A DNA stretch of 64,000 nucleotides from Allobosea sp. BH3 (GTDB lineage Bacteria > Pseudomonadota > Alphaproteobacteria > Rhizobiales > Beijerinckiaceae), in the NCBI RefSeq assembly GCF_025499465.1, contig NZ_JAIMCA010000007.1, forward strand, positions 1 to 64,000, written 5' to 3'. Below are positions 3,596 to 54,963 of the stretch, one piece after another (the stretch's first letter is position 1; every line of letters begins with the position of its first letter). Below the pieces are notes generated by a model. It was not told the DNA's origin. It saw only the letters and a program-made list of their open reading frames with translations, and did not search any database. Position numbers and translations under genes: made by a program.

Positions 3596-3979
3596 ATGGG
3601 TAAAGCATCAGCCCCCCGTGCGCTGCCCGAGAACGAAGCGGTTGCGGTCGCCCGCAACCTGCGTGTCTCGCCGCAGAAGCTGAACCTCGTCGCTCAGCTG
3701 ATCCGCGGCAAGAAGGTCTCGACGGCGCTCGCCGATCTCGAGTTCTCTCGCAAGCGCATCGCGAACGACGTTCGCAAGTGTCTGCAGAGCGCGATCGCCA
3801 ACGCCGAGAACAATCATGACCTCGACGTCGACGATCTCGTCGTCGCCCAGGCCTTCGTCGGCAAGGCGCTTGTCATGAAGCGCTTCCACGCCCGCGCCCG
3901 CGGCCGTGGCGCCCGTATCCTGAAGCCGTTCGCGAACATCACGATCATCGTGCGCGAGCAGGCGACGGCAGAGGCCTGA
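3596..3979 (+). CDS. rplV: 50S ribosomal protein L22
   Basis: L22 spans the large subunit and its beta-hairpin lines the exit tunnel opposite L4. The 127-residue protein has the hairpin signature [14 protein letters not shown] near residues 90-103, where macrolide-resistance and SecM-bypass changes map in other bacteria. No unusual residues were noticed. It is packed between rpsS (3 bp) and rpsC (10 bp), with GGAGAG before the next start. Confidence 0.96.
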
Positions 3980-3989
3980 GGAGAGAACG

Positions 3990-4721
3990 ATGGGTCAGAA
4001 AATCAATCCGATCGGCCTTCGCCTCGGCATCAATCGGACCTGGGATTCGCGCTGGTTCGCGAACAAGGGCGAGTACGGCAAGCTGCTGCATGAGGACATG
4101 GCCATCCGCGCCGCCCTTATGAAGCTGCTGAAGCAGGCCGCGGTCTCGAAGATCATCATTGAGCGCCCGCACAAGAAGTGCCGCGTCACCATCCACTCGG
4201 CGCGTCCGGGCGTGGTGATCGGCAAGAAGGGCGCCGACATCGAGAAGCTCCGCAAGGTGGTCTCGAACCTCACCAAGGCCGACGTCACGATCAACATCGT
4301 CGAGGTGCGCAAGCCCGAGATCGACGCCACGCTGGTCGCCGATTCGATCGCGCAGCAGCTTGAGCGCCGTGTCGCCTTCCGTCGCGCCATGAAGCGCGCC
4401 GTGCAGTCGGCCATGCGTCTGGGCGCCGAGGGCATCCGCATCAACTGCTCGGGCCGCCTCGGCGGCGCCGAAATCGCTCGCCTCGAGTGGTATCGCGAGG
4501 GCCGGGTGCCGCTGCATACGCTGCGCGCCGATGTCGACTACGGTGTCGGCACCGCCTTCACGACCTACGGGACGTGCGGCATCAAGGTCTGGATCTTCAA
4601 GGGCGAGATCCTCGAACATGACCCGATGGCCCAGGACAAGCGCCTCTCCGACGAGGGCGGCCGCTCCGGCGGTCGTGACCGCGATCATCGTGATCGCGAT
4701 CGTCGCGAGCAGGCTGCGTAA
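3990..4721 (+). CDS. rpsC: 30S ribosomal protein S3
   Basis: S3 lies at the mRNA entry channel of the 30S subunit. The 243-residue product has the type-II KH domain with the [15 protein letters not shown] loop (near residues 71-85) and the C-terminal S3 domain ([19 protein letters not shown]). It ends in an Arg/Asp-rich tail ([15 protein letters not shown]) typical of rhizobial S3. It starts with [13 protein letters not shown] after a GGAGAG site. Ordinary spacing to rplP (18 bp). Confidence 0.97.
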
Positions 4722-4739
4722 GGCTGATCGAGAAGAGCC

Positions 4740-5153
4740 ATGCTGCAACCAAAACGCACCAAGTTCCGCAAGCAGTTCAAGGGACGCATTTCCGGCGTCG
4801 CCAAGGGCGGCACGGATCTCAACTTCGGCCAGTTTGGCCTGAAGGCCCAGGAGCCCGAGCGGGTCACCGCGCGCCAGATCGAGGCGGCTCGCCGCGCGAT
4901 CACCCGCGCCATGAAGCGCGTCGGCCGTGTCTGGATCCGCATCTTCCCGGATGTGCCGGTTTCCAAGAAGCCGACCGAAGTCCGCATGGGTAAGGGCAAG
5001 GGTTCGCCGGAGTTCTGGGCCGCCAAGGTCAAGCCCGGCAGGATCATGTTCGAGCTGGACGGCGTGTCTGAGGAGATCGCCCGCGAGGCGCTGCGTCTCG
5101 GCGCTGCCAAGCTGCCGATCAAGACCCGCTTCATCCAGCGCATCGCCGAGTGA
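4740..5153 (+). CDS. rplP: 50S ribosomal protein L16
   Basis: L16 organises the A-site side of the 50S subunit and contacts tRNA. The 137-residue protein begins [16 protein letters not shown] and contains the [12 protein letters not shown] segment, both standard. The Arg in the hydroxylated loop ([16 protein letters not shown]) is present. The stop TGA is followed directly by GGGAGG, the ribosome-binding site for rpmC. Confidence 0.96.
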
Positions 5154-5164
5154 GGGAGGTCGAG

Positions 5165-5377
5165 ATGAAAAGCACACAGCGTCAATCCGACCTGAAGGCC
5201 ATGAGCACGGACCAGCTCCATGACGAGCTGCTCAAGCTCAAGAAGGAGCAGTTCAACCTGCGCTTTCAGAAGGCCACCGGCCAGCTCGAGAACACCGCGC
5301 GGGTGACCGAGCTCCGCAAGGATATCGCCCGCATCAAGACGCTGCAGCGGTCGAAGGCCGTTGCGGCCAGCGCGTAA
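5165..5377 (+). CDS. rpmC: 50S ribosomal protein L29
   Basis: L29 is a small helical protein next to L23 at the tunnel exit. An upstream in-frame GTG at 5150 exists, but I choose the ATG at 5165 because GGAGG sits 5 bp before it and the 70-residue product (starting [13 protein letters not shown]) matches family length. The core motif [19 protein letters not shown] and ARIKT are present. It is 10 bp before rpsQ. Confidence 0.95.
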
Positions 5378-5387
5378 GGAGAAAAAA

Positions 5388-5630
5388 ATGCCTAAGCGCG
5401 TGCTGCAGGGCGTCGTCGTCAGCGACAAGCAGAACAAAACTGTTGTGGTGAAGGTCGAGCGGCGTTATACGCACCCGCTCCTCAAGAAGACGGTTCGCCG
5501 TACGAAGAACTACCACGCTCATGACGAGGTGGGTTCGTTCAAGGTCGGTGACACGGTCTGGATCGAGGAGTCCAAGCCGATTTCCAAGCTGAAAAGCTGG
5601 GTTGTGCTCGAAAACGCCCCCAAGGCGTGA
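5388..5630 (+). CDS. rpsQ: 30S ribosomal protein S17
   Basis: S17 is a primary 16S rRNA-binding OB-fold protein. The start is the ATG at 5388, 6 bp after AAGGAG; the frame is open further upstream but that part overlaps rpmC. The 80-residue product has [20 protein letters not shown] and the [20 protein letters not shown] segment. It is followed by an unusually long 276-bp spacer before rplN. Confidence 0.95.
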
Positions 5631-5768
5631 TTCGAGACGGCTTTGCCCGGCCCTGGTTCAGGGGCGGGCAGGGCGAGGCACCGGATTGATCCGATGCCCA
5701 ACCAAGCGGATCGCCTCTCCTTGCGTCCAAAGGACGCGGGGGCGAGCCGAAGGAAGCCGGACGTGTTT

Positions 5769-5797
5769 TCCGCAAAGGTGGTTCCCACTTTTGCGGA
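5769..5797. repeat. Dispersed palindrome, family B, copy 1 (rpsQ-rplN spacer)
   Basis: A 13-bp near-perfect stem (TCCGCAAAGGTGG with CCACTTTTGCGGA) around a short loop, followed by TCATG. It lies in the 276-bp rpsQ-rplN spacer, which is otherwise non-coding and has no other clear signal. The core (A-rich, GTGG, CCAC, T-rich) matches a second element at 8954-8999, so the two are members of one dispersed family. Confidence 0.75.
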
Positions 5798-5906
5798 TCA
5801 TGTTTTGTTTGAGGCCAGGGGGCGATCGACCCCCGTCAGTCGTAGTCCCGGCCAGCGCTGAGGCCGTCCGGGAAACCGCCTGATACCATTTGGAAGGATC
5901 AAGGCC

Positions 5907-6275
5907 ATGATCCAGGTGCAGACGAATCTCGACGTCGCCGACAATTCCGGCGCCCGTCGCGTGATGTGCATCAAGGTTCTCGGCGGGTCGAAGCGGAAGT
6001 ACGCCGGTGTCGGCGACATCATCGTCGTTTCGATCAAGGAAGCCATCCCGCGCGGCCGCGTGAAGAAGGGCGACGTCATGAAGGCGGTCGTCGTGCGCAC
6101 CGCCAAGGACGTCAAGCGCCCCGACGGTTCCGTGATCCGCTTCGACCGCAATGCGGCCGTGCTGATCAACAACCAGAAGGAGCCTGTCGGCACCCGTATC
6201 TTCGGACCGGTTCCGCGCGAGCTGCGCGCCAAGAACCACATGAAGATCATCTCGCTGGCGCCGGAGGTGCTGTGA
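5907..6275 (+). CDS. rplN: 50S ribosomal protein L14
   Basis: L14 binds 23S rRNA at the subunit interface and contacts 16S helix 14. The 122-residue protein has the start [20 protein letters not shown] and the [20 protein letters not shown]-terminal part. A GGAAGG site precedes the ATG. Its TGA overlaps the rplX ATG by one base. Because of the long upstream spacer its expression may depend on read-through past a palindrome. Confidence 0.97.
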
Positions 6276-7939: not shown

Positions 7940-8473
7940 ATGTCTCGTATCGGAAAGAAGCCGGTTCCGGTTCCCGCTGGCGTCACCGCCTCGGTCACCG
8001 GCCAGCTGGTCAAGATCAAGGGCTCGAAGGGCGAGCTCTCCTTCGTGGTGCCCGAGGACGTCTCGGTCGCCATGGAAGACGGCTCGATCGCGGTGCAGCC
8101 GCGCTCGCAGTCGAAGCGCGCCCGCTCGCTCTGGGGCACTTCGCGCGCCCGCATCAACAATCTCGTGATCGGCACCACCGCCGGCTTCGAGAAGAAGCTC
8201 GAGATCAACGGCGTCGGCTACAAGGCCGCGGTCGCTGGCAAGGTGCTGAAGCTGTCGCTCGGCTACAGCCATGACATCGACTATGAAATCCCGGCTGGCG
8301 TCTCGATCACGACGCCGAAGCCGACGGAGATCGTCGTCGTCGGCATCGACAAGCAGATCGTCGGTCAGACCGCTGCTGAGATCCGCGATTATCGCGGCCC
8401 CGAGCCCTACAAGGGCAAGGGCGTCAAGTACGCCGGCGAGTTCATCTTCCGCAAGGAAGGCAAGAAGAAGTAA
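7940..8473 (+). CDS. rplF: 50S ribosomal protein L6
   Basis: L6 is a two-domain protein near the GTPase-associated region. The 177-residue product starts [15 protein letters not shown] and has the duplicated fold with [24 protein letters not shown] split over the second half and the terminal [21 protein letters not shown] region. CAGGAGA precedes the ATG. It is followed 11 bp later by rplR. Confidence 0.96.
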
Positions 8474-9088: not shown

Positions 9089-9652
9089 ATGGCTAGAGAG
9101 CCGCGTGAGCGTCGGGATAGCGAAGACCGCGATTCCGAATTCGTGGACAAGCTCGTCCACATCAACCGCGTCGCCAAGGTGGTGAAGGGTGGTCGTCGCT
9201 TCGGCTTCGCCGCGCTCGTCGTCGTCGGCGACCAGAAGGGCCGCGTCGGCTTCGGCCACGGCAAGGCCCGTGAAGTTCCCGAGGCGATCCGCAAGGCCAC
9301 CGAAGCCGCCAAGCGCGGCCTGGTCCGCATCCCGCTTCGCGAGGGTCGCACCCTCCATCACGACGTGCAGGGCCGCCATGGCGCCGGCAAGGTCGTGCTG
9401 CGTGCGGCTCCGGCCGGTACCGGCATCATCGCCGGTGGCCCGATGCGCGCCGTCTTCGAGGCGGTCGGCATGCAGGACGTCGTGTCCAAGTCGCTCGGCT
9501 CCTCGAACCCCTACAACCTCGTGCGCGCCACTTTCGACGCGCTGAAGAACGAGGACAGCCCGCGCTCGGTCGCGGCTCGTCGCTCGCTCAAGGTTTCGGC
9601 CCTGCAGACCCGTCGCCGCGATGCCGGCACGGATGCGGCCGCGGAAGCGTGA
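9089..9652 (+). CDS. rpsE: 30S ribosomal protein S5
   Basis: S5 lies at the mRNA entry site and affects decoding accuracy. The 187-residue product has the double-stranded-RNA-binding domain ([20 protein letters not shown]) and the fidelity-related [18 protein letters not shown] segment. It starts after AAGAGGACAGACAC and has an Arg-rich C-terminus. It is 10 bp upstream of rpmD, with GAGGAGGG between. Confidence 0.97.
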
Positions 9653-42081: not shown

Positions 42082-43065
42082 TCAGCCGCCGCCGCGCCGC
42101 GCCTCGCCGGAGAGGTGCAGCGAGGAAGGCACCGGCCTGTTCGCGCCTGGGATCGTCGCGACGGGAACGTCCTCGGGCATCGGCTCCGGCGTTGGGTCGC
42201 GCAGCGGTGCCAGGGGATCGGGCGTCGGTGCCGCAGGGCTTGCCGGGCTCGGGCTCTGCTGCTTCGTCTTGTCCCAGCGGCGCGTGCCGATGTCGTATTC
42301 GCCCCGCATCCAGGCGACGAACTGGCTTTCGTTGCCGAAGAAGGCGTTGCGGTCGACATCGCCGCGGATTCCGGGCACGCGGCCCGTGGTGGTGAACTGC
42401 CAGAAGGCCCAGGGGCGGTTGGCGTAGCGCGTCTCGGGGAGGGCGGCGGTCGAGCGGATCCAATAGGGATAGTCGTTGAACTGCCCCTCCAGCACCTCGC
42501 GATGGAAGGTTATGTCGGTGTAGATCACCGGCTTCTTGCCGGTGAGCTGCTCGAGCTCGGTCAGCATGAGCTGGATCTTCTCGCGCGCGAGCTGGGCGTC
42601 GATCTTTCGCGCGCAGGTGCGGGAATGGCCGTTCCATTCGACATCGAGCACCGGCGGCAGCGCGTCGGGATCGGCCGGAATCTGCTGCTTGAACCAGACT
42701 GCCTGCTCATGGGCCGGCCGGCACCAGTAGACGAAGTGGTAGGCGCCGCGTGGAACGCCGGCGCGTCGGGCGCCTTCCCAGTTGCGCTGGAAGGCGGGGT
42801 CGACATGGTCGCCGCCCTCCGTCGCCTTCATGTAGACGAAGCGGGTGCCGGCGGCCTTGACCGAGGTCCAGTCGATCTCGCCCTGCCAGCGCGAGATGTC
42901 GATGCCATGGATCGGGTAGCTATGCGCTGCCGCGACGCCGGCATGCGGGCGCGCGTCACCCTTCGACGGGTAGTTGTCGATCACGCTGCAGCCGCCCAGC
43001 GTGACGACGGCGGCGGCAGCCAGCAGTTGCGGGATGCGGAAACGGATCATGCGGCGGGCGTTCAT
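42082..43065 (-). CDS. GH25 muramidase lipoprotein, copy B
   Basis: A 327-residue lipoprotein: signal peptide with lipobox LGGC (Cys26), then a GH25 domain with IHGIDISRWQGEIDW, FVYMKATEGGDHVDP and LDVEWNGHS (DxE). About two thirds of the residues match copy A by eye (38018-38968) and the order of motifs is the same. A Pro/Ala-rich tail ends the protein (residues ~265-327). It ends 49 bp from the cyclase stop, convergent. Copy A is exported freely and copy B is lipid-anchored, so they may act at different sites. Confidence 0.9.
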   Translation of the reverse strand: MNARRMIRFRIPQLLAAAAVVTLGGCSVIDNYPSKGDARPHAGVAAAHSYPIHGIDISRWQGEIDWTSVKAAGTRFVYMKATEGGDHVDPAFQRNWEGARRAGVPRGAYHFVYWCRPAHEQAVWFKQQIPADPDALPPVLDVEWNGHSRTCARKIDAQLAREKIQLMLTELEQLTGKKPVIYTDITFHREVLEGQFNDYPYWIRSTAALPETRYANRPWAFWQFTTTGRVPGIRGDVDRNAFFGNESQFVAWMRGEYDIGTRRWDKTKQQSPSPASPAAPTPDPLAPLRDPTPEPMPEDVPVATIPGANRPVPSSLHLSGEARRGGG

Positions 43066-50384: not shown

Positions 50385-51470
50385 TCACCCCAGCGTGAAC
50401 GCCTCATGCACGGCGCTCTGCACGCCACCGCCCATGACGGGGCCGCCACCGGCGACGTGGATCGCGTCGCCGACCAGGGCTGCGCCGAGGCCGTGGCGGG
50501 GTGTCAGCATCGGGGCGTATTGCTCCCATTTGTCGGTCGCCGGGTCATAGGCCTCCATCTGGCCGAAGACGCGGTTGGTGCCTTCCCCGCCCATCACGAA
50601 GACCTTGCCGCGATAGAGCACCGCGCCATGGCCCGAGCGGCCGGTCGGAGCCGGCGTGCGCATCGTCCATTTATCCGTGGCCGGGTCGTAGGAGTGATGC
50701 AGGTTCGAATTGGTGTGGAAGGAATCGACGCGGCCGCCGATGACATGGATCAGGTTGCCGATGGCCAGCGTGCCGGTGTGGTCCCGCGCCGTGGGCAGCG
50801 GGGTGCGCTCGCTCCAGCGGTCGGCCTTCGGGTCATAGACGAGGTGCCAGTCGATTGAGCGCTTGCTCTCGGTGGTCTCGCCGATCGCGCCGCCGATGAC
50901 ATAGAGCAGGCCGCCGAGGCCGACCACGGCGGTGGAGCCGGCGGGGCGGGGCAGCGGGGCGATCTCCGCCCAGCGATCCGTCTTGGGATCGTAGGTGAAG
51001 CAGCGCGGATGCGGCTTGCGGTTCTGCTCCAGGAAGCCGCCGATGGCGTAGAGCTTGCCGTCGAGGAAGGCGACGCCGACATGGTTGGCGCCCTGAGGCA
51101 GGGGGGCGCCATCGATCCATTTGTCGGCCTTTGGATCGTAGACATGGTGATAGGCCCGGTCGGTGCGCTGCTCGCCATAGCCGCCGACGATGTGCATCCT
51201 GTCCTCGAAGGCCGTTGCCCAGGCCATCTCGGAGCGCGGCAGCGGCAGCGGCGCCTTCGCGCTCCAGCGGCCGGGCGAGGCGGCCTTGGGCGCCGGCGAA
51301 TCGAAGACGTTCTGCGTGGCGGCGAGTTCGGGCTTCTCGATGCGGCCCGGCTGGTTGAGCCGTTCATATTGCGGGCCATGATGCTCGTGGCCCTGCTGCT
51401 GTGCGAGCGCGGGCGTGGCGAGCGCGGCGGCGCCGGCTGCGAGCAGATGACGACGATTCAGGTTGCTCAT
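50385..51470 (-). CDS. Secreted kelch-repeat protein
   Basis: A 361-residue exported protein. The N-terminus NLNRRHLLAAGAAALATPAL is a twin-arginine-like signal. The mature part has about five kelch repeats, each with a GG pair and a YDPxxDxW (MHIVGGYGEQRTDRAYHHVY, YVIGGAIGETTESKRSIDWH, HVIGGRVDSFHTNSNLHHSY), so a six-bladed propeller is likely incomplete or five-bladed. Usual partners bind sugars or proteins; target unknown. The frame is open upstream but the start at 51470 fits the signal. Confidence 0.85.
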   Translation of the reverse strand: MSNLNRRHLLAAGAAALATPALAQQQGHEHHGPQYERLNQPGRIEKPELAATQNVFDSPAPKAASPGRWSAKAPLPLPRSEMAWATAFEDRMHIVGGYGEQRTDRAYHHVYDPKADKWIDGAPLPQGANHVGVAFLDGKLYAIGGFLEQNRKPHPRCFTYDPKTDRWAEIAPLPRPAGSTAVVGLGGLLYVIGGAIGETTESKRSIDWHLVYDPKADRWSERTPLPTARDHTGTLAIGNLIHVIGGRVDSFHTNSNLHHSYDPATDKWTMRTPAPTGRSGHGAVLYRGKVFVMGGEGTNRVFGQMEAYDPATDKWEQYAPMLTPRHGLGAALVGDAIHVAGGGPVMGGGVQSAVHEAFTLG

Positions 51471-51906
51471 GGCGCTCTCCTCCCGACCGTGACGATAGGG
51501 GAACGCAGCCGGGCTGCAAGCGCGCGAAGCGCTCGCGACTCCACTGTGTTCCCGCGCGCTGCTGCGCATGCCGGTCAAGCCGCCATCTCAAACGATTCAC
51601 GCCCGGGCCCATATGGGGAAACGCATCCGCGCGCATGACAAGGTCGCGATCTTCACCGCAGCCGGGCCGGGTGCCAGCTGCGCCGTCGCCACGGCGGTTC
51701 AGAAGGACGAACTGCGCCTTGCCAGCCGCGCCGCGGTTTGAAGGGGCCTGCGTCTGTCCTGCCCGGCCGAGACGGCCTGGTCCGTGGGAGCCGGGATTTC
51801 GCTGATCGCACAGCCACCGCGTCAGGGGCCCGAACCAACTCAAGGAGGCGCTGCCGCCTCCTTGGGAATGTTTCGGTCCAGCCCGGCCTGAAGGCGCGCT
51901 GCAGGT
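51471..51906. other. 436-bp gap without a supported gene
   Basis: No coding frame with protein-like sequence was found. The main signal is a perfect 10-bp stem at 51841-51864. The region holds the kelch gene promoter, which I could not place. Confidence 0.5.
51841..51864 (-). terminator. Stem-loop downstream of the fusion lysis gene
   Basis: CAAGGAGGCG (51841-51850) pairs perfectly with CGCCTCCTTG (51855-51864), loop CTGC. On the minus strand it lies 43 nt after the lysis gene stop, followed by AGTTGG rather than a T-run, so a weak or Rho-assisted end. Confidence 0.4.
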
Positions 51907-53922
51907 CTATGCTGCGGCGCGCGTTTCCGATGTCCGGATCATGTCCCGCGCAGCCCCGGCGATAATCTCGGTGCGGTTGGTCCAGCCCTTGCCGAAGGCA
52001 TCCCAATCTTCGAGGTTCTTGTAGTAATCGATGCGCCGGCGCGCCATCTCGTCGATGATGTCACGCGGCTTCATCAGGGCGACGCAGCGCAATGTTGCCG
52101 GGCCGATGGCGCCATCCGGGTCGGCGCCGACGATCTTCTGCAGCATCTTCGCGGCGGTTGCCGGGCCGGCGTTCACGCCGAAATCGAAGACGATCAGGTC
52201 CACGCCCTTCGGCAGATCGTCGCCGCGCAGCGGGTTCCAGTAGCGATTGCGGTAGATCGCATTGGCCTCGTCCTTCGTCAGCGCCTTCAGGATCTCGATG
52301 GTGACCTCGCTGTCGTCGCCCTGCGCCTTCCGCCACGACTTCAGCGTGGCGAGCGTGATGCCGAACTGGGTGGGGCCGCCATTGTCGCGGGAGTCGTTGG
52401 AGAATCCACCCTCGCGGCCGAAGACAAGGTCGAGGCAGTTGTCGAAATTGGAAGGCGCCATCCCGCTCTGCGGCGGCTTCGGGTCCGAAGCGCTGCCGTT
52501 GGGAGCAGTCCTCCCCCCCGGCGCGGGCGGCACCGACCCCTGGGAAACGTGCTCCGCCTCGCGGGCGATGGCAGCGACGTCCTTGGCACGCGATCCTTGC
52601 GACGAGCCGAGCCAGAAGCTGACGACGGTGGCGAAGGCGGTGGTGAGGGCTCCGAAGCTGATATTGACGAGCTGGTAGATCTGGTTGTTCGGGCTTGGAA
52701 GCTGAGGCGTGAACATCAGGGCGACGAAATAGCCGAGCAGGAAGAGGAAGCCGAACAGCACGAGCCCCGAGACCAGTAGCGGCCCCCATTGCATCAGGCT
52801 GCCCTGCGAGGCCCAGATCGTGGCCTGGTCACGCGCGTCCCGGACGTCGGCGAGCTGCGCTTCGAGTTCCTTGAGCTGCGATTCCCGCTGCAGGCGCTCG
52901 CTCTCGGCCTGGACGCGCGCCGCCTCGAGCCGGGCCTGCTCGCGCTGCTCTTCCTGCTGGACCACGAGTTCGGCGAGCCGGACCTGAAGCTGTTGCTTGG
53001 CGACCGGGTCTGCCTCGATGACCGCCTTGGCCTTGTCCGGCTCGCTGGTGCCTGCGGTCTCGGTCACGGCCTTGACGACCCGTTCGGCGACGGCTGCGGC
53101 TTTCTCGCCGACCAGCGCCTTGAGGATTTCCGGGAGCACCCAGGCGGCGATGGAAACGAGCGGGTTCACGAGCGTGGTACCGATCTTGAAGGCGGCCGAG
53201 GCCGCCGCCATGGCCACGCCGGCGAGGTTGATGCCGAGTGCGCTCGCGGTCTGTGGCCCGACCTCGCCGTCGACCACGAGCCCCGCCGACTTCTGGAAGG
53301 CGGCGACCGCCTGCGCGAGCGCGGCATCGAACACGCCGCGCGGCGACGTCACCGCGACGGATTTCGCCTGCAGCGCGTCCTGGATGCGCTCGATCACGCC
53401 GCGTTCCATGTTCGCCTGGTTCTGCGCATAGATCAGGGGCGGCGGCGCGACCGGGACATCGTGCGCGGCGTCGTAGTCGATGCCGTCGATCAGCACGCCG
53501 GTGTCCCAGCGACGGCCTGTGACCTTGCCGCGTGCGACGCCTCGGGCGCGGTCCATCGCCTCGACCGTGCCGCCCTGGCCGTCCGACACGGCGATATGGC
53601 CCATCTCGTCTGGCCCTTCGGGCGGATAACGCAGCAGGAAGGCGCCCTTGATGCCGGCCGCCTGCGCGACAGGGATCATGTGGCCCACCGTCCGCGCGTC
53701 GCGCTTCCAGTAGCCGGTATAGGCGTCTGCGGTGGCAGGCGAGGCGGCGTTGTTCCGGCAGCCATAGAGCTTCTCGGCTTCCTGATAGACGAGCCAGGAG
53801 GCGAATTCGGCGCAATCCCACGGGCCTCGGTAGCCGGCCTCATCCTTGGGGACGACGGCATGCTCGTATCGTTCGCCGATATGCTGTTCGGCGCGCGCGA
53901 ACAGGCTGCTGCCGGTCGGCAT
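51907..53922 (-). CDS. Fusion of Cys/His peptidase-like, PG-binding, holin-type and GH108 muramidase domains
   Basis: A 671-residue polypeptide that joins parts usually made separately in phage lysis. Residues ~30-150: peptidase or amidase-like domain with Cys37 (DCAEFASWLVY) and His109 (MGHIAV). ~177-230: peptidoglycan-binding domain (AVAAFQKSAGLVVDGEVGPQ). ~318-368: coiled coil, Glu/Gln/Arg-rich. ~379-403 and ~420-438: two membrane segments, with NISFGALTTAFATVVSFWLG and GSSQGSRAKD as in the GTA/3TM holin family. ~490-660: GH108 muramidase, Glu504 in GREGGFSND, plus its PG-binding part (RYWNPLRGDDLPKGVDLIVF). Start 53922 has GGGGGGA upstream. No phage genes flank it. Confidence 0.85.
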   Translation of the reverse strand: MPTGSSLFARAEQHIGERYEHAVVPKDEAGYRGPWDCAEFASWLVYQEAEKLYGCRNNAASPATADAYTGYWKRDARTVGHMIPVAQAAGIKGAFLLRYPPEGPDEMGHIAVSDGQGGTVEAMDRARGVARGKVTGRRWDTGVLIDGIDYDAAHDVPVAPPPLIYAQNQANMERGVIERIQDALQAKSVAVTSPRGVFDAALAQAVAAFQKSAGLVVDGEVGPQTASALGINLAGVAMAAASAAFKIGTTLVNPLVSIAAWVLPEILKALVGEKAAAVAERVVKAVTETAGTSEPDKAKAVIEADPVAKQQLQVRLAELVVQQEEQREQARLEAARVQAESERLQRESQLKELEAQLADVRDARDQATIWASQGSLMQWGPLLVSGLVLFGFLFLLGYFVALMFTPQLPSPNNQIYQLVNISFGALTTAFATVVSFWLGSSQGSRAKDVAAIAREAEHVSQGSVPPAPGGRTAPNGSASDPKPPQSGMAPSNFDNCLDLVFGREGGFSNDSRDNGGPTQFGITLATLKSWRKAQGDDSEVTIEILKALTKDEANAIYRNRYWNPLRGDDLPKGVDLIVFDFGVNAGPATAAKMLQKIVGADPDGAIGPATLRCVALMKPRDIIDEMARRRIDYYKNLEDWDAFGKGWTNRTEIIAGAARDMIRTSETRAAA

Positions 53923-54201
53923 GGCTTCGTCCCCCCAAGAACGTTATGCACTCATAGGTTGCATATCCTGTTGCGCTACGTCAATCGCGAGCGTTCGCTT
54001 TGCCTCCGAGCTTGCACGCCGTACCGCCGGCGGCTCGGGGAGGGCGGGGGCGTGCCCGGCCGGAGAAGCGGCCGATCAGCGCGCGCGTCCAGCGCAGGGG
54101 CATGACCGCCCGGCATGCGCAGCCCCTTCCACGTGCTCCATAGGCTGCTATGGTCGGGTGCATTCAATCGGTTTAGCCGGCAGAAACTTACGAGGAACGC
54201 C

Positions 54202-54963
54202 ATGCCTGCGCACAACAAGGTCGCCATCATCACCGGAGCCGGATCGGGCGTCGGACGGGCTGTCGCCATCGCCTTCCTGAAGGATGGCTATCGCACCGTG
54301 CTGGCCGGGCGCCGCGCCGATGCGCTGGAGGAGACGATCACGCTCTCCGGCGTCGACAAGGCCCGCGCGCTCGCCGTTTCCACCGACGTCACCGACAAGG
54401 CCTCGGTCGCGGCGCTGTTCGCCAAGACGAAGCAGGCTTTCGGCCGGCTCGACGTGCTGTTCAACAATGCCGGCGTCAACGCGCCCGGCGGCATCCTGCT
54501 GGAGGACCTCTCGCTGGAGGACTGGCAGAAGGTCGTCGACACGAACCTGACCGGCCCGTTCCTCTGCACGCAGGAAGCCTTCAAGCTGATGAAAGCGCAG
54601 GAGCCGCAGGGCGGGCGCATCATCAACAACGGCTCGATCTCGGCCCATGCGCCGCGCCCGAACTCGATCGCCTACACCGCGACCAAGCACGCCATCACCG
54701 GCCTGACCAAGACCGCGGCGCTCGACGGGCGCAAATACGACATCGCCGTCGGCCAGGTCGACATCGGCAATGCGCTGACCGAGATGGCCCGCAAGATGAC
54801 GACCGGCGTGCCGCAGGCCGACGGTACGAACAAGATCGAGGCGGTGATGGATGTCGATAACGTCGCGACCACGGTGCTGCACATGGCCTCGCTGCCGCCG
54901 GAGGCGAACGTGCTGTTCGTGACGGTGATGGCCACCAAGGCGCCCTTCGTCGGGCGCGGGTGA
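54202..54963 (+). CDS. Short-chain dehydrogenase/reductase (SDR), 1
   Basis: A 253-residue NAD(P)-dependent oxidoreductase. [10 protein letters not shown] (cofactor loop near residue 12), NNAGVNAPG, and the catalytic [20 protein letters not shown] with Tyr and Lys are visible. I start at ATG 54202 ([16 protein letters not shown]); the frame is open upstream but that extension is not protein-like. Substrate unknown. It is separated by a palindromic repeat from the next gene. Confidence 0.9.

Follow-up and report, generated by a model that had tools for sequence, protein, structure and literature searches.

The gene considered here lies on a 64,000-nucleotide stretch of DNA from Allobosea sp. 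BH3 (contig NZ_JAIMCA010000007.1, positions 1 to 64,000; the window). It encodes a single protein of 671 residues in which an NlpC/P60-type peptidase arm with a PG_binding_1 domain, a membrane module of the phage family PHROG 1544, and a GH108 muramidase arm with a PG_binding_3 domain follow one another (Table 1). We lean, by a modest measure, towards reading this protein as a device of phage origin that combines holin and endolysin in one gene. The two functions are usually encoded by separate genes, with the holin setting the timing; here the lysin domains and a module that we regard as a probable holin occupy one open frame in three genera. The open reading frame starts with ATG, and its position, strand and length had been given correctly in an earlier reading made from the letters alone (the sequence-only reading).

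The domains at the two ends were assigned by profile and by fold. Pfam matches above cut-off were obtained for GH108 (PF05838; E 3.6e-27, 95.2 bits against a cut-off of 21.2), PG_binding_1 (E 4e-13) and PG_binding_3 (E 3.7e-12), while the CHAP profile matched residues 31-112 under its cut-off (E 0.01, 16.8 bits against 26). An AlphaFold2 model of the whole protein, built with 48 sequences, reached a mean pLDDT of 84.0 and a pTM of 0.45. Foldseek matched its N-terminal domain to NlpC/P60 peptidases, 6b8c being the best (TMt 0.80, E 7.6e-4). All 43 NlpC-bearing rows of alignment A7 have the residues Cys37 and His109. The modelled fold together with the Cys-His pair supports a place for this arm in the NlpC/P60-CHAP superfamily. 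For the C-terminal domain, the closest solved GH108 structure is that of Brucella SagA (7dnp; TMt 0.87, E 1.2e-11), and the TtsA structure 6v40 was matched as well (E 4.6e-4). Membership of GH108 is given by both the profile and the catalytic glutamate, as Glu504 lies within an EGG motif and is invariant in 56 of 56 GH108 domains. The CHAP/NlpC-like domain with Cys37 and His109, the peptidoglycan-binding domain, the coiled coil followed by two membrane segments (from 376 and from 418) and the GH108 domain with Glu504 had all been named in the sequence-only reading, and all of them were recovered.

Table 1. Positions of the gene, its parts and its insertion site in the window
Feature	Position	Strand	Basis
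Whole gene, NlpC/P60 - PG_binding_1 - PHROG 1544 module - GH108 - PG_binding_3, 671 aa	51907..53922	minus	
NlpC/P60-fold (CHAP-like) N-terminal peptidase domain, residues 1-150, Cys37 and His109	53473..53922	minus	Foldseek; CHAP sub-threshold; 43/43 conservation
PG_binding_1, residues 177-229	53236..53394	minus	Pfam
Holin-like PHROG 1544 module, residues ~245-455: small helical part, long helix, two transmembrane (TM) helices, LGSSxGSxxK motif	52558..53190	minus	
Long helix / coiled coil, residues 306-372	52807..53007	minus	AlphaFold2 model
TM1, residues 376-408	52699..52797	minus	
TM2, residues ~414-440, then conserved WLGSSQGSRxKD motif (437-448)	52603..52683	minus	
GH108 muramidase core, residues 498-586, Glu504	52165..52431	minus	
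PG_binding_3, residues 590-651	51970..52155	minus	Pfam
Insert absent from congeners G006, G012, G018, G010 and G015	51738..54148 (approx.)		Boundaries from G012 and G018
Left decayed copy of SDR 5' end (direct repeat, 74% over 77 bp, E 2e-9)	51631..51707	plus	
Right intact copy of SDR 5' stretch, inside SDR gene (54205-54963)	54208..54284	plus	

Relatives of the whole protein were sought in a scan of genome contigs, which matched 182 stretches with 112 relatives, and the best 80 of the 112 were used. Among these best 80, two are of whole length, from Mesorhizobium sp. BR1-1-16 (L029) and Methylopila jiangsuensis (L030), with 47 and 48% identity to the window protein in the alignment. Because both carry all the parts at full length, the fusion is no product of a frameshift or an assembly error, an artefact that the sequence-only reading had named as a ground for refuting it. 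These two genomes and the window's own are the three in which the whole profile was matched among 397 genomes of the order, and the four-part gene is absent from all 36 congeners examined. The remaining 78 of the best 80 loci match chiefly residues 1-233, an NlpC-PG_binding_1 unit that is most often a protein of its own, about 232 aa long, and is also part of other fusions. Within the window's genome no second locus matches the window protein at E 0.001, and so no second GH108 was found there.

The middle module matches PHROG 1544 with E 2.2e-14, and the same family is matched by 13 of the 13 members of alignment A3, which holds fused as well as standalone modules. A signature is shared by 33 sequences: D...AR before TM1 and G.....YWLGSSxGSxxK at the end of TM2. 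Modelled alone, the module gave a mean pLDDT of 88.7 and folded into a small helical part, a long helix and a hairpin. We call it a probable holin because its standalone form sits beside endolysin genes, that is, in the position expected in a lysis cassette. This was seen in a survey of 89 viral and phage loci, 88 of which hold a module frame (L288 holds none), a neighbour being the nearest same-strand gene found by a simple gene caller and identical proteins being counted once. All 73 non-identical proteins from 86 upstream neighbours were scanned, and 56 of the 62 non-identical proteins from 76 downstream neighbours (L245, L270, L278, L280, L283 and L296 were left out). The nearest upstream gene encodes a peptidoglycan hydrolase in 43 of 73 cases: GH19 in 17, GH24 in 11, Muramidase in 7, GH108 in 6, and Amidase_2 and M15/VanY in one each, every match being a separate protein and two M15-type hits being counted as one. 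Downstream, the corresponding figure is 1 of 56 (M15). The upstream gene lies within 150 bp in 53 of 73 cases, mostly overlapping or abutting, and the downstream gene in 49 of 56. In the Oceanospirillum phage vB_OliS_GJ44, for instance, the module gene starts where an annotated amidase gene ends, and in a Vibrio phage the gene upstream of the module is annotated DUF5675. On contig L028 an NlpC-type gene resembling the N-terminal arm of the window protein is directly followed by a 67-aa protein ending FYFGSSTGSEFK..., which by eye is like the end of the module, yet has no PHROG 1544 match.

The topology of the window protein was predicted from hydrophobicity, and two segments, 376-408 and 418-436, exceed the threshold. 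Two TM helices would leave both arms on one side of the membrane. The cytoplasmic side is the probable one, because there is no signal peptide (the first 60 residues are without a hydrophobic stretch) and the loop between the helices is uncharged. The sequence-only reading had pictured a chromosomal device with one enzyme arm on each side of its membrane anchor. The two enzyme arms around a holin-type membrane module stand; the arrangement on opposite sides does not agree with the prediction.

With this topology the following course can be envisaged. The protein, having no signal peptide, would enter the inner membrane as a hairpin and be harmless at first, with both arms in the cytoplasm. Once enough copies have gathered, the module would open or weaken the membrane, in the way that a holin does for an endolysin. 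The tethered arms could then reach the wall, where GH108 would cut glycan strands and NlpC/P60 would cut stem peptides. The outcome would be lysis, or a local opening of the wall for release of cargo. The gene would have been acquired as a single-gene insert and retained as a chromosomal function; GTA (gene transfer agent) release, secretion like that of the Type 10 system and programmed lysis are all candidate roles.

The same protein could be a membrane-anchored wall-remodelling enzyme, in which the PHROG 1544 part is a mere anchor and periplasmic arms serve growth or the assembly of an envelope machine, as might be compared with the chromosomal GH108 protein SagA of Brucella. We consider this unlikely. 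The lack of phage-structural genes around the gene, the rank of SagA as the closest solved GH108 structure and the frequency in the order of GH108 matches without the module all agree with it. Periplasmic arms are at variance with the missing signal peptide and with two TM helices joined by an uncharged loop, which point to the cytoplasm. Moreover, the AR...TM...LGSSxGSxxK signature is conserved more strongly than an anchor would need, and in phages the module neighbours six families of hydrolases.

Several points weigh against a holin-endolysin device. PHROG 1544 is annotated as of unknown function and has no assigned role. Of the 73 upstream proteins, 30 match no hydrolase model and 20 are encoded more than 150 bp away, so that intervening genes were perhaps missed. 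The viral contigs are related and the neighbour counts are not independent, for which reason we place weight on the variety of the enzymes and not on their count; several of the upstream hydrolase families share the lysozyme-like fold. At L299 the upstream gene is itself a Phage_holin_3_2, and hence the module need not be the sole holin. The module is also rare, being found in 12 of 397 genomes of the order. As to topology, the loop is charged in some relatives and both long and charged in the first L149 protein. A segment at 234-275, which stays under the threshold in the window protein, has a counterpart above it in several relatives (L029, L030, L144, L145 and L147 among them), and if it spanned the membrane it would put the arms on opposite sides; in the models these residues form short broken helices. 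We know of no tested precedent for a holin with large arms on both ends. Finally, PF11351 (GTA_holin_3TM) gave no hit on the window protein at E up to 10.

The last point bears on the GTA/3TM holin family, whose sequence style the sequence-only reading had seen in the two membrane segments. PF11351 gave no match in the window's genome, the best relative reaches E 0.8, and hhalign of the module with four PF11351-bearing proteins aligned 34 columns with a probability of 19% (pair E 0.0012). From the missing hit and the low probability, this family was rejected by profile, and PHROG 1544 takes its place. Two weak hits point to a holin in the general sense: among viral models, the one closest in fold carries the annotation 'Holin of 3TMs' (probability 0.99, E 4.4e-3, root-mean-square deviation 11.8), and the fused protein at L146 has a hit to the LydA-type holin PF16083 below cut-off (E 0.0063). 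VIA-align of the module gave a best Z of 6.0, which is uninformative for helices.

Searches with the module matched 12 of 397 genomes from the order, 40 of 385 from the class and 19 of 398 from the phylum, and most of the frames concerned are about 160-230 aa long. With 16 loci read among the class and phylum hits, eleven fused modules were found in ten genomes. Three have the arrangement NlpC-PG_binding_1-module-GH108 (G000, G112 and G314) and five are module-GH108 (G113, G241, G401, G423 and G786). G057 holds both a module-M15 and a module-Phage_lysozyme2 fusion, and G015 a module-Phage_lysozyme2 fusion. Longer frames in G706 (315 aa), G980 (268 aa) and, in the order, G373 (658 aa, E 5.8e-4) stand outside this count, and further fusions may exist. 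At L149 two module fusions lie in tandem (3641-4948 and 4963-6186), one with M15 and one with Phage_lysozyme2, and G903 has seven module matches on seven contigs.

In a tree of 34 chosen modules, a selection from those found, all eleven fused modules fall on one side of a single branch (support 95/77, present in 95% of 200 bootstrap trees), and none of 500 shuffles was as low. Within this clade the GH108 fusions (95/91) are set apart from the other three (100/97). The eight fused GH108 domains form one group in a tree of 56 (94/97, not starred), and the three NlpC arms cluster together in a set of 55 (97/90). In a tree of the eight module-GH108 stretches the four-part proteins did not come together, and their togetherness was not rejected (approximately unbiased test, p-AU 0.32). 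The simplest reading of these trees would be one fused lineage whose C-terminal lysins were exchanged and which gained the N-terminal NlpC arm once.

On this basis we propose, tentatively and with more doubt than confidence, an undescribed lineage of chromosomal one-gene devices for lysis or secretion. Its PHROG 1544 holin module would permanently carry exchangeable wall-cutting enzymes: a C-terminal GH108, M15 or Phage_lysozyme2 domain and, on one occasion, an N-terminal NlpC/P60-PG_binding_1 arm. Such a device would move from genus to genus as an insert of one gene, in some cases leaving direct repeats behind, and would enable a prophage-free cell to lyse or to open its wall by means of a single protein directed at membrane, glycan and peptide together.

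A constant carrier with variable C-termini is also a pattern like that of polymorphic toxins. The protein might thus be an antagonistic or defence effector, its carrier bearing variable wall-cutting C-terminal domains, and the exchange of hydrolases on a constant carrier speaks for this. We find it scarcely probable, given that a signal peptide is missing, that no immunity protein was recognised among the flanking proteins scanned, and that the PADLOC match, on the coiled coil, is of E 0.0058 and 13.4 bits. With that match the assignment to a defence family was rejected.

A more specific role, in the lysis step of GTA release, may be considered for a fused holin and muramidase encoded away from the GTA cluster, as rcc00555 and rcc00556 are in Rhodobacter. 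The GTA_TIM marker was found in 7 of 9 fused-module genomes, including all three with the four-part protein, a figure that comes from fused-module genomes only (without G786) and has no background rate beside it. The window's genome has neither another match at E 0.001 nor PF11351. R. capsulatus is reported to have a putative lysozyme and a putative holin away from its GTA cluster (extracts of PMC3423380), and Caulobacter, without holin-endolysin genes, is described as using LypABC in extracts of PMC13236601 (2026). Set against this, G241 and G401 have the fusion and GTA_TIM was not found in them, and the four-part gene is missing in the 36 of 36 congeners examined. A dedicated GTA lysis protein accordingly seems to us quite improbable.

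The surroundings of the gene bear on how it came to its place. In five of seven congeners examined the site is empty, with the kelch and SDR genes adjoining; in G009 and G002 the kelch gene is not beside SDR. The insert consists of this gene alone, beside a partial duplication of its SDR neighbour. A comparable case is L145 (G241), where a module-GH108 gene is exactly flanked by 98-bp direct repeats (7949-8046 and 9537-9634, 86%) that are the sole two matches in that genome; around this gene synteny is lost in three relatives. Flanking direct repeats were not found at six other fused loci (L144, L146, L147, L151, L152 and L316), the survey having been made without L149 and L150. The GC content at third codon positions (GC3) of the window gene, 0.868, is inside its neighbours' range of 0.845-0.925, and its GC content is likewise within theirs.

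No phage-structural family was found by Pfam among eleven flanking proteins, two of which gave no hit, and a prophage context was rejected on that ground. The families found are kelch, GH25, lipoyl ligase, carboxyl transferase, SDR (two), cation efflux, biotin carboxylase and D-Ala-D-Ala carboxypeptidase. The sequence-only reading was right that phage neighbours are missing; its step from there to a cellular role was too strong, because the gene is a single-gene insertion absent from congeners. The gene might be taken for a leftover of a phage or satellite between recombination scars, without function at present, since the empty site in congeners, the duplicated SDR 5' end and the 98-bp repeats of G241 resemble insertion scars. 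We hold this to be very unlikely: the frame is open over 671 codons with its catalytic residues intact, GC3 is that of the neighbours, all domains are conserved in two other genera, and the frame has remained intact as the left repeat decayed to 74% identity.

Other features of the neighbourhood are recorded here. A GH25 lysozyme-type gene with a lipoprotein-like start lies 9 kb away (42082-43065, minus strand), and a kelch-repeat protein with a Tat-like start is encoded directly downstream of the fusion gene (50385-51578, minus strand). Few genomes of the order have the kelch gene (10 of 199 at E 1e-60), and relatives 53-56% identical to it occur near Bradyrhizobium NlpC-PG_binding_1 fusion genes (L033, L034, L036-L039 and L314). 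No weight was given to this linkage, as seven other kelch stretches are without a match to the window protein and no kelch gene accompanies the NlpC-PG_binding_1 fusion gene in the G422 stretch. Concerning control, none of the SOS-type motifs GTTC-N7-GTTC, GAAC-N7-GAAC and GAAC-N7-GTTC occurs within 300 bp upstream of 10 of the 11 fused genes. A consensus scan of 51400-54300 gave no sigma-70 site and one terminator-like site on the plus strand, fewer than in shuffles. Neither cargo nor spanin was recognised among the flanking proteins scanned.

The NlpC-PG_binding_1 unit and GH108 also turned up in other company. Proteins of 617-736 aa at L031-L039, L041, L043 and L047 have the unit in the middle, and those at L031-L033, L043 and L047 begin with an N-terminus containing '...NNPGAQYP...' or '...CNPGAQYP...' that has no Pfam match and have a hydrophobic tail. 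On the Rhizobium ruizarguesonis plasmid pRlX4 (L110, 5995-7395) a gene bearing NlpC-PG_binding_1 stands in a run with caspase-family and CHAT-domain genes. An 858-aa Acidobacteriota protein (L075, 6840-9416) joins a hydrophobic N-terminal part, an NlpC-like domain, PG_binding_1 and an Rv2525c-type glycoside-hydrolase-like domain. CHAP-GH108-tail and VanY-GH108-tail proteins of 436-571 aa were found at L009, L015, L017 and L019: L009 and L015 are CHAP-GH108 with a membrane-type tail, L017 is without a CHAP hit, and L019, from a congener, is VanY-GH108 with a tail. PHROG 29088 weakly matches the tails of L009 and L015. Fusion of lysins to membrane parts seems, from these domain arrangements, a recurrent theme in the window's order.

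With a natural protein in which a holin-type module stands between two enzymes, one can test whether tethered lysins can be presented by a holin, a matter that bears on how holins move folded proteins without lysis. For PHROG 1544, a phage family without annotation, a likely function is supplied. The protein also becomes a candidate for the lysis by which GTAs are released in Hyphomicrobiales.

Among known proteins, SagA of Brucella abortus (7dnp) shares the GH108 fold, with 45% identity over 170 columns; we know of no NlpC arm or PHROG 1544 module in it. Nearly the whole PHROG 1544 profile (5-192 of 200) is matched by the module. Most of the relatives found are standalone proteins of about 160-220 aa, whereas the window's copy bears two enzyme arms. 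In R. capsulatus the putative lysozyme rcc00555, which we take to be a GH108 protein, and the putative holin rcc00556, presumably of the PF11351 family, are separate genes, unlike the parts of the window protein, and the GH108 and PF11351 pairs in G049 and G042 are separate genes too. The likeness is in having a lysozyme and a holin that are chromosomal and outside the GTA cluster (extracts of PMC3423380). Release of this GTA is described as the classical holin-endolysin mechanism (extracts of PMC13236601).

The Type 10 secretion system with TtsA, a GH108 protein of Salmonella Typhi, is treated in extracts of PMC9527704. There, as is proposed here, a bacterium that produces no phage uses a holin with a GH108 enzyme; its parts are separate genes, as a rule with a spanin among them, and its secreted cargo is known, whereas the window has one gene with no cargo or spanin recognised adjacent. 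A fused holin-endolysin of the RL phage (Basit et al. 2021, as cited in extracts of PMC9636201 and PMC13230199) likewise carries its holin at the endolysin N-terminus in one protein; it has one enzyme and is discussed there as an antibacterial product.

Another such fusion is the natural one of Clostridium sporogenes (WP_163247266.1), in which, according to extracts of PMC9527704, a TpeE-family holin is translationally fused to an endolysin with the membrane part N-terminal of the enzyme. Its authors argue there that the end of the holin takes the fused endolysin with it across the membrane and that the enzyme may remain tethered. This idea fits the C-terminal arm of the window protein. For an N-terminal arm on a holin we know of no precedent. 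The C. sporogenes protein differs in its holin family, its Gram-positive host and its one enzyme (extracts of PMC9527704); the window protein has a PHROG 1544 module, belongs to alphaproteobacteria, carries enzymes at both ends, is found in three genera and came as a single-gene insertion. The holin-endolysin fusion as a kind is thus already known, with at least one natural case in the literature, whereas the holin family, the enzymes on both ends, the apparently monophyletic lineage that swaps its lysins and the single-gene insertion are new as far as we have seen.

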